A DNA stretch of 64,000 nucleotides, taken from the NCBI GenBank assembly GCA_029936675.1, contig JAPYSB010000001.1:114669-178668 (forward strand), written 5' to 3'. The DNA is from Dehalococcoidia bacterium. GTDB lineage: Bacteria; Chloroflexota; Dehalococcoidia; Lucifugimonadales; UBA826. The notes under the pieces are model-generated. The model worked only from the letters and a program-made list of their open reading frames with translations, made no database searches and was not told the DNA's origin. Below, piece by piece: positions 4,889 through 42,602 of this stretch. Position 1 is the first letter of the stretch. Each line of letters starts with the position of its first letter. Both the position numbers and the translations under genes were made by a program.

Positions 4889-4955
4889 TGGCGGGAGCGC
4901 GAGGGAGTCGAACCCACCGCACCAATCGAAGGATTGCTGCCAACGGAGTTGAAGT
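4889..4955 (-). repeat. att-like direct repeat inside intact selC (copy 2)
   Basis: The 3' half of selC that is repeated at 3145-3211; the two copies are 1,744 bases apart in the same orientation. The repeat begins in the anticodon loop and ends exactly with the encoded CCA, the extent commonly seen when tyrosine-recombinase elements carry a replacement tRNA 3' end. The intact tRNA lies at this boundary. Confidence 0.85.
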
Positions 4956-4986
4956 CCGCAGAGACCACCAGGCCTCATCCGCTCCC
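4889..4986 (-). tRNA. selC: tRNA-Sec, anticodon UCA (selC)
   Basis: Minus-strand sequence starts GGGAGCGG and ends CGCTCCCG-CCA with CCA encoded (98 nt). It has the special tRNA-Sec features: a six-pair D stem (GAGGCC with GGTCTC) closed by a four-base TGGT loop, an anticodon stem CGGA/TCCG around loop CTTCAAC giving anticodon TCA, a long variable arm (GCAGCAATC with GATTGGTGC, one mismatch), and a T loop TTCGACT. The eighth acceptor pair (G-G) and one T-stem pair (T-T) look mismatched. It would decode the UGA of the selenoprotein 4 kb away. The companion genes selA, selB and selD are not in this window. Confidence 0.93.
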
Positions 4987-23146: not shown

Positions 23147-23176
23147 AAGGCCCGCCCCAATCAAGGGACGGGCCTT
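23147..23176 (-). terminator. T-box intrinsic terminator hairpin
   Basis: AAGGCCCGTCCC pairs with GGGGCGGGCCTT around a six-base loop (12 pairs, one G-T), followed by TATATTTT. It lies 18 bases before the ileS start and its 5' arm lies just after the T-box bulge, as expected for a terminator that competes with an antiterminator. Confidence 0.85.
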
Positions 23177-23400
23177 AAAATAGTCCGCGGTACCACCCTA
23201 ATTCCCCGCATCAAACGAGGCTCTTAGTCAAAAAGCACTGATAACGTAGTGCAGATCCGTCATTTCCTACTCACTTATAAGTTTTCAGAGTGAAACTCCG
23301 GAGTGATCTTCGAGCTAGCAGCAAGTACCCTCTCTCAGCAACCAAGGGCTCTCTGAACCGCAATCTAGTCTCTACTCGTCTCCATCAAAGTTATTTATTT
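23147..23400 (-). promoter_or_regulatory. T-box leader of ileS, specifier AUC (Ile)
   Basis: The minus strand carries the T-box core AGGGTGGTACCGCG (23186-23199), whose TGG would pair with the free CCA end of tRNA-Ile. It is followed by a strong stem-loop (23147-23176) and then ileS. Further upstream is Stem I with the characteristic GAGAGCCC...TTGCTGAGAGAGGG region, and a specifier segment GAAGATCACTC in which ATC (23305-23307) is the Ile codon. Uncharged tRNA-Ile should prevent termination and raise ileS expression. The leader is about 270 nt if transcription starts near 23404. Confidence 0.94.
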
Positions 23401-38811: not shown

Positions 38812-40056
38812 TTAGGGAAACCTTTTGATCCATTGGACACCCAGGTAGGCTCCTACAGCTAGCCCTACGGCATATACCCACCCATTGAGAGCTAAAGATG
38901 GAACGGCCGAAAAGAAAGCCCCCAATGTACAACCTAACCCAAGCCCAGCACCATATCCCATAATCACCCCTCCCACTATCGACTGCACATATCTAATCGG
39001 ACTTTGTGGAATTCTCCATTTGAACTCACGGGCAAACAAAGCTGATGCCAGCGCTCCAGCGACAATACCAAAATTCAGAAAAAATCCACTGGTGAACCAA
39101 GATCCCTCTGCCACTGTCATGACACATGCCCCTAAACCCTCCATACCTTTCAAATGTAACTCTTGAAGTCCCAGGCTACTGCTTAAAGATGTCGTCCATC
39201 GGGATATTTCTCCAACAACCCCTAAAGGCCTAAACCTGATAAACAATAATATATTGATTATTCCTAGGGCTATCCCACCTACAATCGGACTCCATTCCTT
39301 CCTAAAAATGTTCCGAAAATACCCTGTTATTTCTGAAGTTGTATTGGCAGGATTGTTTTCTTGAGATTTTCTTTTTATTTCTGGCATAACGAATCCCGCG
39401 GTAGCCCTTCTTTCCCTCCAAACAGCTAGGTAAAGTAAAGTTGCCAGAAGGAAAGTGGTGAGCAGCAGAGCACCTGTATAGGAAATTTCAGACGGCATCC
39501 AAATCTGTGGTTCAGATGAAATCAAATTGTCCCACCACCAATTCCAGGAATTATTAAGCAGGAAAAGGCCTACCATAACTCCCCCTATGGCAAGCCAAGA
39601 CCCAACATAACCTTCGCCCATCCTATATAGAGAACCAGACACGCATCCTCCCGCCAAAACCATGCCGATCCCAAATAAGATGCCTGCGATTAAAGTAGAC
39701 AATCCGACAGGCAACACATTGGCATCAGACGGAGGGGCTCCAAATCCTGGGTTTGGCGACACCGTGCTCATCACCATTACAAACCCTACGGTGCAAACAG
39801 CAAGACCGACCAACATCCCTTTTAATATTCTAGTCTGTCCCAGAAGGAAAAAATCTCTAAAGGCCGATGTGAAACAAAATCGACTTCTTTGCACAGTTAT
39901 ACCAAAGGCAATACCAGCCAACCAAAAAACAGCCTCCCCATGAGTACCGGCATAGACTGTGTACCCAAGAATTAATAACAAAACTCCGGACACGACAAGG
40001 GTCCAAAAGGTATTTTTATCTATCTTCCCTTTTATTGACAGTGTAGCTATCTGCAT
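38812..40056 (-). CDS. YeeE/YedE-type thiosulfate (sulfur compound) transporter
   Basis: 414 residues, about ten to eleven membrane segments in two related halves. The three conserved cysteines of YeeE/TsuA-type channels are in QRSRFCFTSAFRD (Cys61), AGGCVSGSLYRMGEG (Cys138) and GLGCTLGAFFSAVPS (Cys376). These pass thiosulfate through the membrane by Cys-thiosulfate contacts in the known protein. A selenium-transport variant of the family exists, so selenium-related cargo cannot be excluded. It is divergent from tusA-like and rhodanese genes, which supports a sulfur uptake module. TusA-like partners are functional partners of YeeE in other bacteria. Confidence 0.9.
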   Translation of the reverse strand: MQIATLSIKGKIDKNTFWTLVVSGVLLLILGYTVYAGTHGEAVFWLAGIAFGITVQRSRFCFTSAFRDFFLLGQTRILKGMLVGLAVCTVGFVMVMSTVSPNPGFGAPPSDANVLPVGLSTLIAGILFGIGMVLAGGCVSGSLYRMGEGYVGSWLAIGGVMVGLFLLNNSWNWWWDNLISSEPQIWMPSEISYTGALLLTTFLLATLLYLAVWRERRATAGFVMPEIKRKSQENNPANTTSEITGYFRNIFRKEWSPIVGGIALGIINILLFIRFRPLGVVGEISRWTTSLSSSLGLQELHLKGMEGLGACVMTVAEGSWFTSGFFLNFGIVAGALASALFAREFKWRIPQSPIRYVQSIVGGVIMGYGAGLGLGCTLGAFFSAVPSLALNGWVYAVGLAVGAYLGVQWIKRFP

Positions 40057-40238: not shown

Positions 40239-40267
40239 TTGACATAAAAGGTACTATTCGGTAAATT
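40239..40267 (+). promoter_or_regulatory. Sigma-70 promoter for the tusA leader
   Basis: TTGACA (40239-40244), 17 bases, TAAATT (40262-40267): consensus -35 and a good -10. Predicted start near 40274, giving a 200-nt untranslated leader before the tusA-like ATG. No other comparable pair lies in the 418-base divergent region between the transporter and tusA genes; the part 40057-40238 holds nothing else I can assign. Confidence 0.75.
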
Positions 40268-40274
40268 TATAGCC

Positions 40275-40445
40275 TCATGATAACTAATGGAAAATACGGC
40301 TTACTCAAGCAGATTACGTGCCTTGTGGGCACATACAGTCTTGCAGATAAGTGTTCTTGTATGAATTAACAAGGGGTATTTTTCTAGTCGCCTAATGGCG
40401 AATAAACACAACCCCGTCCGCATTGGCTGGACGGGGTTTTTTTTT
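40275..40445 (+). ncRNA. Candidate structured leader RNA of the tusA-rhodanese operon
   Basis: Between the promoter and the terminator lie about 135 bases with nested pairing: TAAT/ATTA (40285/40365), ATAC/GTAT (40294/40359), CTTA/TAAG (40300/40348), CAAG/CTTG (40306/40340), and a tight GTGCC/GGCAC hairpin (40318-40332), together one long imperfect arm. A separate perfect hairpin TCGCC-TAAT-GGCGA is at 40388-40401, and then a strong terminator. It contains no ORF of note and no motif of a riboswitch class I know (no TPP, cobalamin, SAM or T-box core). It could be an attenuator for tusA or a stand-alone small RNA. Confidence 0.5.
40410..40445 (+). terminator. Intrinsic terminator just upstream of tusA
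   Basis: AACCCCGTCC (40410-40419) pairs perfectly with GGACGGGGTT (40429-40438) around a nine-base loop, followed by a nine-T run to 40445. It is 29 bases before the tusA-like start codon, and its position in the leader suggests conditional termination. Confidence 0.92.
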
Positions 40446-40474
40446 GAAAAAAAAACAAAGGAGTTTTCGAAAAA

Positions 40475-40717
40475 ATGGAAAATGACTCAAATCCAACTTT
40501 GCTAGATGTAAGGGGTGAAATATGCCCTTATCCGATGCTCAGAACGAATAAGGAACTAGACAATTCAGACCAACCACTAACAGCTTTGGATGTACTAACC
40601 GACCACCCGCCAGCACTGTCCACTATACCTCCTGAAGCTATGAAGCGAGGGTATGGATGCGAAATTGAAGAGGTTGAGGCCGGTGAATGGAAAATTCGTT
40701 TATTTAAATCAGAGTAG
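40475..40717 (+). CDS. TusA-family sulfur carrier
   Basis: 80 residues: LLDVRGEICPYPMLRTNKEL carries the TusA motif CPxP with the sulfur-accepting Cys17, followed by the normal alpha/beta fold and LDVLTDHPPALSTIP. TusA-like proteins move sulfane sulfur between partners in the cytoplasm and associate with YeeE-type transporters. AAAGGAG is upstream of the ATG. It is followed 37 bases later by a rhodanese lipoprotein gene, and the two probably share the regulated transcript from 40275. Confidence 0.93.
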   Translation: MENDSNPTLLDVRGEICPYPMLRTNKELDNSDQPLTALDVLTDHPPALSTIPPEAMKRGYGCEIEEVEAGEWKIRLFKSE

Positions 40718-40754: not shown

Positions 40755-41699
40755 ATGCTGATTCGTAAATTGACCAAAATGGGTCTTGGAATGGTGATAG
40801 GAGCGCTAATGTTAGGCGTACTAAGTGCCTGTTCAAGCACTTCAGATGTGTCTGAAGACACATCACTGGATAGTAGAGGTTACTCATCCACGGAACGACT
40901 GGTATCGACGAAATGGGTCGCAGATAATCTCGACAATAAAAATGTAAAGATTATTGACATCAGAAAAACTGAAGACTATGACGCCGGACACCTTCCTGGT
41001 GCCGTAAACTATTCTTCCAAAGAACTCCAGGTTGAGTCTGGAGGGGTAAAAGGTATGATCCCACCATCAACAGATATTTCGAATAAACTTGGTTCTTTAG
41101 GTATAAAAAGTGACGACACCATTATCATTTATGACGGCATAAAAAATCTCTGGTCAACAAGATTTTTGTGGACATTAGAGGTATACGGTCATGATGACGC
41201 AAGGATGATGGACGGTTCCTTTGGTTTGTGGGAAAAAGAAAACAGGGAAATTACCACCGGTGCTCCTTCAGTAAAGGCCTCTACCTATAAATTCACAGGT
41301 ACGGCCAATAGTGAACTGGTTACAAGTATAGACACAGTGCTGGGTTCCTTAGATGATTCCTCCTCAGTAGTCCTAGACACCAGAGGAGCAGAGGAATTTG
41401 CAGGACGTGATGTAAGGGCCAGTAGGGGGGGGCATATTCCAGGTTCCATACATGTTGAATGGGTGAACAACGTTGATGAAGATGGTAGATTTCTACCTGC
41501 CTCAGATTTAAAGGAACTATATGCATCTGCGTACATAACAGACGAGTTAGGCGATATCTACACTTTATGTCAAACGGCAGTCAGGGCAACCCACAGCTGG
41601 TATGTACTGGCTGATCTACTTGGCTTTGATAATGTATCCGTTTATGATGGGTCCTGGACCGAGTGGGGTAATAGAGAAGATACACCTATAGATTCCTAG
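40755..41699 (+). CDS. Two-domain rhodanese (thiosulfate sulfurtransferase) lipoprotein
   Basis: 314 residues from the ATG at 40755, preceded by AGGAGCAC; the upstream frame to 40653 overlaps tusA. A lipoprotein signal ends VLSACSSTS. Two rhodanese domains follow: the first (IIDIRKTEDYDAGHLPGAVNY) has no active-site Cys loop and is probably structural, the second has VVLDTRGAEEFAGR and the active-site loop CQTAVRATH with catalytic Cys272. It would work outside the membrane, moving sulfur from thiosulfate to an acceptor. With YeeE and TusA it forms a sulfur uptake and transfer set. Confidence 0.9.
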   Translation: MLIRKLTKMGLGMVIGALMLGVLSACSSTSDVSEDTSLDSRGYSSTERLVSTKWVADNLDNKNVKIIDIRKTEDYDAGHLPGAVNYSSKELQVESGGVKGMIPPSTDISNKLGSLGIKSDDTIIIYDGIKNLWSTRFLWTLEVYGHDDARMMDGSFGLWEKENREITTGAPSVKASTYKFTGTANSELVTSIDTVLGSLDDSSSVVLDTRGAEEFAGRDVRASRGGHIPGSIHVEWVNNVDEDGRFLPASDLKELYASAYITDELGDIYTLCQTAVRATHSWYVLADLLGFDNVSVYDGSWTEWGNREDTPIDS

Positions 41700-41813: not shown

Positions 41814-42602
41814 ATGGGATCTTTAGATGGTAGAGTGGCTCTAGTAACTGGAGCAAGTCGTGGAATCGGAGAATACATGGCTGTCCATTTTGCTAAAGCA
41901 GGGGCAAAAGTCGCCATTGCTGCCCGTACCACTGAAGTCACCGACAAAAGGCTTCCCGGCACCATTTATTCGGTTGCGGAAACGATCAATAAGGGGGGTG
42001 GAGAGGCAATCGGTGTCCAGATGAATATGAGGGACAACGAAAGCATTACCGCCGGAGTAGAAGAAACTGTAGAAAAACTCGGTGGAGTAGATATAGTTGT
42101 TAATAACGCCGCCATACTGGTCCCAGGGTCGCTAGAAACAGTACAAGATAGACATATAGACCTAATATGGCAAATTGACCTGAGAGGGCCTTTAATACTA
42201 ATGAAAAGAGCTCTTCCACATGTGAAATCCGCTGGAGGAGGAGATTTTATCAATATATCTTCTCGTGCCGGGGTTTTCCCAGGTCCAGGACCATACGAAG
42301 AAACCCCTTCTAGGAGAGATGGAAGCTTTTACGGCATGATAAAGTCCGGCCTTGAGAGATTTTCACAAGGCCTCGCTAAAGAATTACAAGCTGACAACAT
42401 TAAAGTCAATGTCTTATCCCCTCAAGGTAGAATCAAGACTCCGGGCAACATATGGGCTGAAAACGACCCAGAAAACCCCTCGCTTGAGTTTGAGGCTGCT
42501 GATGAAATGGGTAAGGCTGGTGTTTGGATATGCGAACAGCCGGCAACGTACACAGGACATATATTATTTGATCAAGATGTTTGCTCAGAGCAGAATTTAT
42601 AA
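41814..42602 (+). CDS. Short-chain dehydrogenase/reductase
   Basis: 262-residue SDR: TGASRGIGEYMAVHFAKAG, NNAAILVPG, catalytic ISSRAGVFPG with Tyr-Lys in YGMIKSG. The C-terminus ends TYTGHILFDQDVCSEQ rather than the usual DGG, and the region between has an insertion (GPGPYEETPSRRDGS) before the Tyr. AAGGGGG precedes the ATG. Substrate unknown. The metallophosphoesterase gene follows 31 bases later. Confidence 0.88.
   Translation: MGSLDGRVALVTGASRGIGEYMAVHFAKAGAKVAIAARTTEVTDKRLPGTIYSVAETINKGGGEAIGVQMNMRDNESITAGVEETVEKLGGVDIVVNNAAILVPGSLETVQDRHIDLIWQIDLRGPLILMKRALPHVKSAGGGDFINISSRAGVFPGPGPYEETPSRRDGSFYGMIKSGLERFSQGLAKELQADNIKVNVLSPQGRIKTPGNIWAENDPENPSLEFEAADEMGKAGVWICEQPATYTGHILFDQDVCSEQNL

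Follow-up and report, generated by a model that had tools for sequence, protein, structure and literature searches.

A probable cysteine-reading transcription attenuator upstream of a TusA–rhodanese operon in SAR202 Chloroflexota

The leader of a tusA-like gene in the window (i.e., the whole 64,000-nucleotide stretch of DNA analysed here) very probably contains a ribosome-mediated transcription attenuator of the trp type that reads the supply of Cys-tRNA in a SAR202 (Chloroflexota) bacterium. Comparison with relatives recovers a short ORF, its cysteine codons and their spacing, a promoter, an intrinsic terminator and an arm complementary to the latter; judging from these sequences, the cell probably makes its sulfur-handling proteins only when cysteine is short. 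An earlier note on this DNA had proposed that the terminator before tusA is conditional, i.e., an attenuator, and this is now well supported, with a competing antiterminator arm present in every lineage examined. It had also presented the leader as an undescribed structured RNA, either riboswitch-like or stand-alone. This is not the best reading, as the conserved TGTTCTTGTATGA proves to be a set of codons for Cys-Ser-Cys-Met.

Anatomy of the leader and the proposed switch

The leader ORF had no prior annotation and is kept in relatives (Table 1). The promoter noted earlier before tusA is confirmed as TTGACA-17-TAAATT, and TTGACA-17-TAnnnT followed by 6–9 nt to the ATG recurs in all nine tusA leaders examined, from three genera; the promoter scan alone gave four promoter-like sites against 4.2 expected, which is not significant. 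Transcription would start at about 40273–40276, a few bases before the leader ATG, making the ORF near-leaderless. In the window's genus (g1) the regulatory site consists of just two cysteine codons with a serine between them, the last cysteine lying two codons upstream of the stop codon at 40367–40369, and in the copy in the window codon 15 encodes one further cysteine. The g1 hairpin over Cys28 has 98.4% of its cells paired in nine sequences; its position is that of the 1:2 hairpin in classical attenuators, where it would hide the antiterminator arm unless a ribosome holds it open. The GGGGT/ACCCC antiterminator pairing has 97.8% of its cells paired.

Two further elements described earlier, the hairpin TCGCC/GGCGA and the terminator with nine Ts 29 nt before the tusA ATG, are present, the terminator having a folding energy of −21.2 kcal/mol. 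The proposed stretch of about 135 foldable bases does fold better than its shuffles (z −4.23; 0 of 200 as good), but is mainly a 30-codon ORF that had been overlooked. Likewise, the long imperfect arm drawn within it retains the pair 40318/40332 in the minimum-energy fold, whereas 40285 pairs with 40386 and not 40365; the two inner helices inside the ORF keep 59–67% of their pairs across nine relatives and are thus not conserved.

Table 1. Features of the leader and neighbouring genes (window coordinates)
Feature	Position	Strand	Remarks
Promoter	40239–40267	+	−35 TTGACA 40239–40244, 17-nt spacer, −10 TAAATT 40262–40267
Leader peptide ORF	40277–40369	+	30 codons and TAA; predicted near-leaderless; MITNGKYGLLKQITCLVGTYSLADKCSCMN, then stop
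Regulatory codons TGT TCT TGT	40352–40360	+	Cys26 Ser27 Cys28; C-[CS]-C-x-x-stop arrangement conserved
Hairpin 1:2	40354–40375	+	40354–40360 (over Cys28) pairs with 40369–40375
Antiterminator arm GGGGT (strand 2)	40373–40377	+	pairs with ACCCC 40411–40415
Hairpin TCGCC-TAAT-GGCGA	40388–40401	+	arms 40388–40392/40397–40401; enclosed by the antiterminator pairing
Intrinsic terminator (strands 3:4)	40410–40445	+	hairpin 40410–40438, nine Ts 40437–40445
AAAGGAG	40457–40463	+	probable tusA ribosome-binding site, read from sequence
tusA-like gene	40475–40717	+	first governed gene; Pfam TusA PF01206, 57.4 bits (cut-off 28.6)
Two-domain rhodanese-like sulfurtransferase gene	40755–41699	+	PF00581; second gene of the presumed operon
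SDR gene	41814–42602		downstream of the rhodanese gene
YeeE-type sulfur-transport gene	38812–40056		divergent from tusA

We posit that when Cys-tRNA is plentiful the ribosome would reach the stop codon and cover about the next ten bases, including GGGGT; with GGGGT covered, the terminator would form and end transcription upstream of tusA. A shortage of Cys-tRNA would make the ribosome wait at the TGT at 40352 or 40358 and open hairpin 1:2, and the freed GGGGT would pair with ACCCC, occupying the 5′ arm of the terminator and allowing tusA and the rhodanese gene to be transcribed. If the leader is not translated, hairpin 1:2 and the terminator would form by default. The same device would operate before a gene for an XRE-type regulator elsewhere in the same genome, such that cysteine shortage would turn on sulfur-mobilising proteins along with a regulator. 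For this switch we infer transcription and translation of the leader, stalling of the ribosome and cysteine as the signal.

The arm just after the stop codon can pair with the terminator's 5′ arm in all nine leaders tested and also in the tusA leader of genome G012. The pairs are GGGGT/ACCCC in g1, GCGAGGAAT/ATTCCCCGC in a second genus (g3), and AGCGAGGATT/AATCCCCGCT (tusA) and AGGTGAGCC/GGGCCCCACCT (xre) in a third (g6), with those of g3 and g6 including a mismatch or bulge. When a ribosome at the stop codon was mimicked by dropping the ten bases that follow it, the fold preceding the terminator weakened in 9 of 9 leaders, in the window from −17.1 to −8.3 kcal/mol. As judged by folding and complementarity, the antiterminator would be freed with the ribosome at the cysteine codons and masked with it at the stop. 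Random 16-mers of the window match the terminator as well as the post-stop arm does in 1.4–4.2% of cases, giving combined Fisher probabilities of 1.5e-3 over three classes and 2e-4 over four, in which the tusA leaders of g3 and g6 may be non-independent. Among mononucleotide shuffles of the arm, 9 to 121 of 1000 were as good. Dinucleotide shuffles of the 16-base arm gave p of 0.73 and 0.51 in g1, which is not significant, and a weak 0.04 in g6, no terminator having been found for two further cases; we give this null little weight because such shuffles hardly break GGGG within 16 bases, leaving the null nearly fixed. A covariation check found the antiterminator and 1:2 helices to be nearly invariant within the genus, too constant to offer compensatory support, and the case does not rest on covariation.

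Recurrence of the leader and chance expectation

To survey TusA loci we took the best 80 of 122, three of them with under 160 nt upstream, and defined the leader as an ATG-initiated ORF of 12–45 residues within 300 nt, ending in C[CS]C, two codons and a stop. The whole arrangement is found at 8 of these best 80 loci, with a ninth (L047) cut but with its ending TCCCCMR visible; five of the eight are same-genus loci ending in CSCMN, the others ending in CCCMR or CCCCMR. No such leader was seen at the remaining TusA loci among the 80. Within the family (16 genomes surveyed), TusA is present in 11 and the leader at 10 of those 11, namely in six genomes of g1, three of g3 (one cut) and G012 of g6; the contig bearing the eleventh gene (G006) starts 17 nt upstream. 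In G012 the leader ends one contig (L192/L201) and tusA opens another (L160), and we join the two because a divergent yeeE lies on the first contig and both share the terminator sequence. L160 (G012:C31) opens with the terminator and the beginning of tusA repeated in inverted orientation, apparently a misassembly at the terminator hairpin. The tusA leaders thus end in CSCMN (g1), CCCCMR or CCCMR (g3) and CCCMR (g6), the last cysteine standing two codons before the stop in every leader of the three genera.

A DNA similarity search recovered five same-genus copies at 79–96% and, in three genomes, shorter second matches; these second copies precede the gene of an XRE-type HTH protein. A fourth xre copy lies in the window's own genome (G000:C53:5719), as seen at L142 1400–1900 (G000:C53:5618-6118) before its XRE-type HTH gene. 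Across the family, 9 of 16 genomes have an XRE homologue, and the xre leader is found in G000, G003, G005 and G007 (ending CSCM[K/S]) and in G012 (MKYREFILVTVCCCCQT, then stop; ending CCCCQT); it was not seen in G006, G011 and G014 (three of the nine genomes with an XRE match) and is cut in G001. In the two homologues of the XRE protein that were scanned, the C-terminal two thirds had no Pfam match at E 0.1. A plasmid search gave no match.

The leader ORF behaves as a coding sequence in its frame. In all copies the invariant TGTTCTTGTATGA reads in one frame as Cys-Ser-Cys-Met followed by one residue and a stop; the ORF with its stop has 31 codons in six of six tusA copies and 32 in four of four xre copies, and the other forward frames are closed in each of these ten. 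Comparisons with G001 gave pS of 0.5–0.6 versus pN of 0.3 over the leader ORF, and no clear codon-position bias was found among closer pairs or xre copies; selection on the peptide is modest, in keeping with a leader that depends on its final codons alone.

Several controls bear on whether the codon arrangement could arise by chance. When three upstream regions were shuffled by dinucleotide, it appeared in 1, 0 and 0 of 3000 shuffles. The window's own genome has CCC-x-x-stop at 11 places and CSC-x-x-stop at 10, with a terminator within 130 nt at just 2 of these 21, the tusA and xre leaders. The pattern CSC-M-x-stop has matches in 16 of 250 genomes of the order; ten such places inspected (L122–L131, leaving out one listed place, L138) lacked leader context and were set aside. 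All eight CCC-M-x-stop places in 393 genomes of the class were taken as chance, their context being coding-like or without a leader. The 16 family genomes also have CCC-x-x-stop places; of 20 hand-picked from the matches listed, with preference for TGT runs, one (L201) is followed by a terminator. Random control sites gave eight terminator values, too few for use.

Alternative readings and known attenuators

Cysteine codons could matter through the peptide that they encode. An arrest-peptide sensor would stall the ribosome when its nascent chain, with Cys-x-Cys or a run of Cys, reacts with or binds a signal (metal, persulfide or oxidant), and would have the same switch downstream. The products of tusA and the rhodanese gene do handle reactive sulfur, and the g1 ending C-S-C-M is nucleotide-invariant in nine aligned copies, bar one synonymous change (TCC) in L142, but this invariance is also explained by hairpin 1:2. 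Moreover, known arrest peptides rely on specific upstream residues, whereas those here differ between genera, with only the cysteine codons kept in CSCMN, CCCMR, CCCCMR and CCCCQT. The unlike N-terminal halves thus indicate that it is the cysteine codons, rather than the peptide sequence, that are kept, favouring codon reading and leaving arrest by the peptide unlikely.

If the ORF were incidental, a structured RNA that ends at the terminator, whether riboswitch-like or stand-alone, would account for the stable fold and for the pairing across nine relatives of a helix P1 (92%) and hairpin 1:2 (98%). Against it, ORF length and frame are kept while the inner arm is not, and the leaders of g3 and g6 differ in sequence yet keep the cysteine codons, promoter, antiterminator arm and terminator. 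The absence of a known riboswitch core claimed earlier holds up: no Rfam family (riboswitches, T-box, 6S, sul1 and others) matched at gathering score here or in five other leader loci. The best weak match at a permissive E-value was trpB RF04312 (29.3 bits versus a cut-off of 59); it and the weak matches to MicC and PyrR fall mostly within the terminator and were taken as chance. An aptamer-like three-way junction was likewise dropped once its conserved bases turned out to be codons. We regard this alternative as very improbable, and the case illustrates that a conserved leader ORF can mimic a structured regulatory RNA. Finally, a leader ORF with a terminator would respond to any stall near its stop codon, such that the element might sense slowed translation in general, cysteine not being special; that three genera place cysteine codons at the same critical site makes this extremely unlikely.

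The preferred attenuator reading agrees with the trp, his and ilv attenuators in having a promoter before a short ORF that ends 5′ of the terminator (its translation being predicted), codons for one amino acid near the ORF end (in three genera, CSC, CCC or CCCC placed two codons ahead of the stop), alternative 1:2 and 2:3 pairings and, preceding the first structural gene, an intrinsic terminator formed by strands 3:4. It is unlike them in its cysteine codons, near-leaderless ORF, and occurrence in Chloroflexota, upstream of an operon for a sulfur carrier and of a gene for a regulator. Similarly, it resembles T-box leaders in controlling terminators and in the proposed sensing of uncharged tRNA, but there is no T-box match at the tusA leader and the sensing would use a translating ribosome.

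Canestrari and colleagues are said to have reported in 2020 that mycobacterial polycysteine ORFs, which are short and leaderless, act as cysteine-responsive attenuators. The mycobacterial and actinobacterial cysteine leaders share with ours runs of cysteine codons beside the stop of a short ORF and sulfur or cysteine genes downstream, the ORF here probably being near-leaderless. However, the genes downstream here (tusA, rhodanese, XRE regulator) differ from theirs, and each leader has an intrinsic terminator and a competing arm, which sets it apart from a mycobacterial-type cysteine-run ORF acting without a transcription terminator. No terminator hairpins were found for leader peptides of actinobacterial cys operons (PMC1262725), the mycobacterial polycysteine case is described as translation attenuation (a 2026 paper, PMC13236596), and leader-peptide systems were known only from Proteobacteria and Actinobacteria, with Firmicutes added by a 2010 survey of premature terminators (PMC2965389). 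Our literature search, with subscription papers mostly outside it, turned up neither a cysteine attenuator that has an intrinsic terminator nor any in Chloroflexota.

We lean towards a more specific proposal, namely that this near-leaderless ORF and intrinsic terminator constitute a cysteine-specific attenuator coupling Cys-tRNA charging to TusA/rhodanese sulfur trafficking and an XRE factor, as a small one-signal regulon of deep-sea SAR202, and the first for cysteine and for Chloroflexota in the literature searched. If true, leader-peptide attenuation would extend to Chloroflexota and to cysteine, with a terminator reportedly absent from the actinobacterial cysteine leaders, and cysteine shortage would be linked to the genes for sulfur trafficking in an uncultured marine lineage. 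As TusA and rhodanese move sulfur and do not make cysteine, the physiological link would be indirect.

Governed genes and genomic setting

The window comes from a genome of 2.19 Mb in 53 contigs, and in the public collection contigs of the same genus are labelled as MAGs of SAR202 or of Dehalococcoidia. The rhodanese gene lies 3′ of tusA in the relatives compared too. Family members with the leader and a visible yeeE have it divergent; at three SAR202-like loci (L038, L050 and L068) tusA, rhodanese and yeeE are on the same strand, with yeeE last and no cysteine leader. The leader and the yeeE rearrangement may have arisen together.

The proposed cysteine control would give a physiological hint for the operon, for whose TusA and rhodanese thiosulfate, persulfide or selenium may be the substrate. 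The best NCBIfam matches of the TusA-type and YeeE-type proteins are the selenium-linked models YedF and YedE/FdhT, respectively, at scores below cut-off (39.4 of 79 and 203.3 of 350 bits), and the operon could serve selenium besides sulfur. The window also contains a tRNA-Cys (GCA) gene, and a tRNA-Sec gene at 4889–4986 on the minus strand. Elsewhere in the window, a T-box leader (RF00230, 119.1 bits; 23161–23397, minus strand) directly precedes a long minus-strand ORF beginning near 23174, putatively for an isoleucyl-tRNA synthetase.
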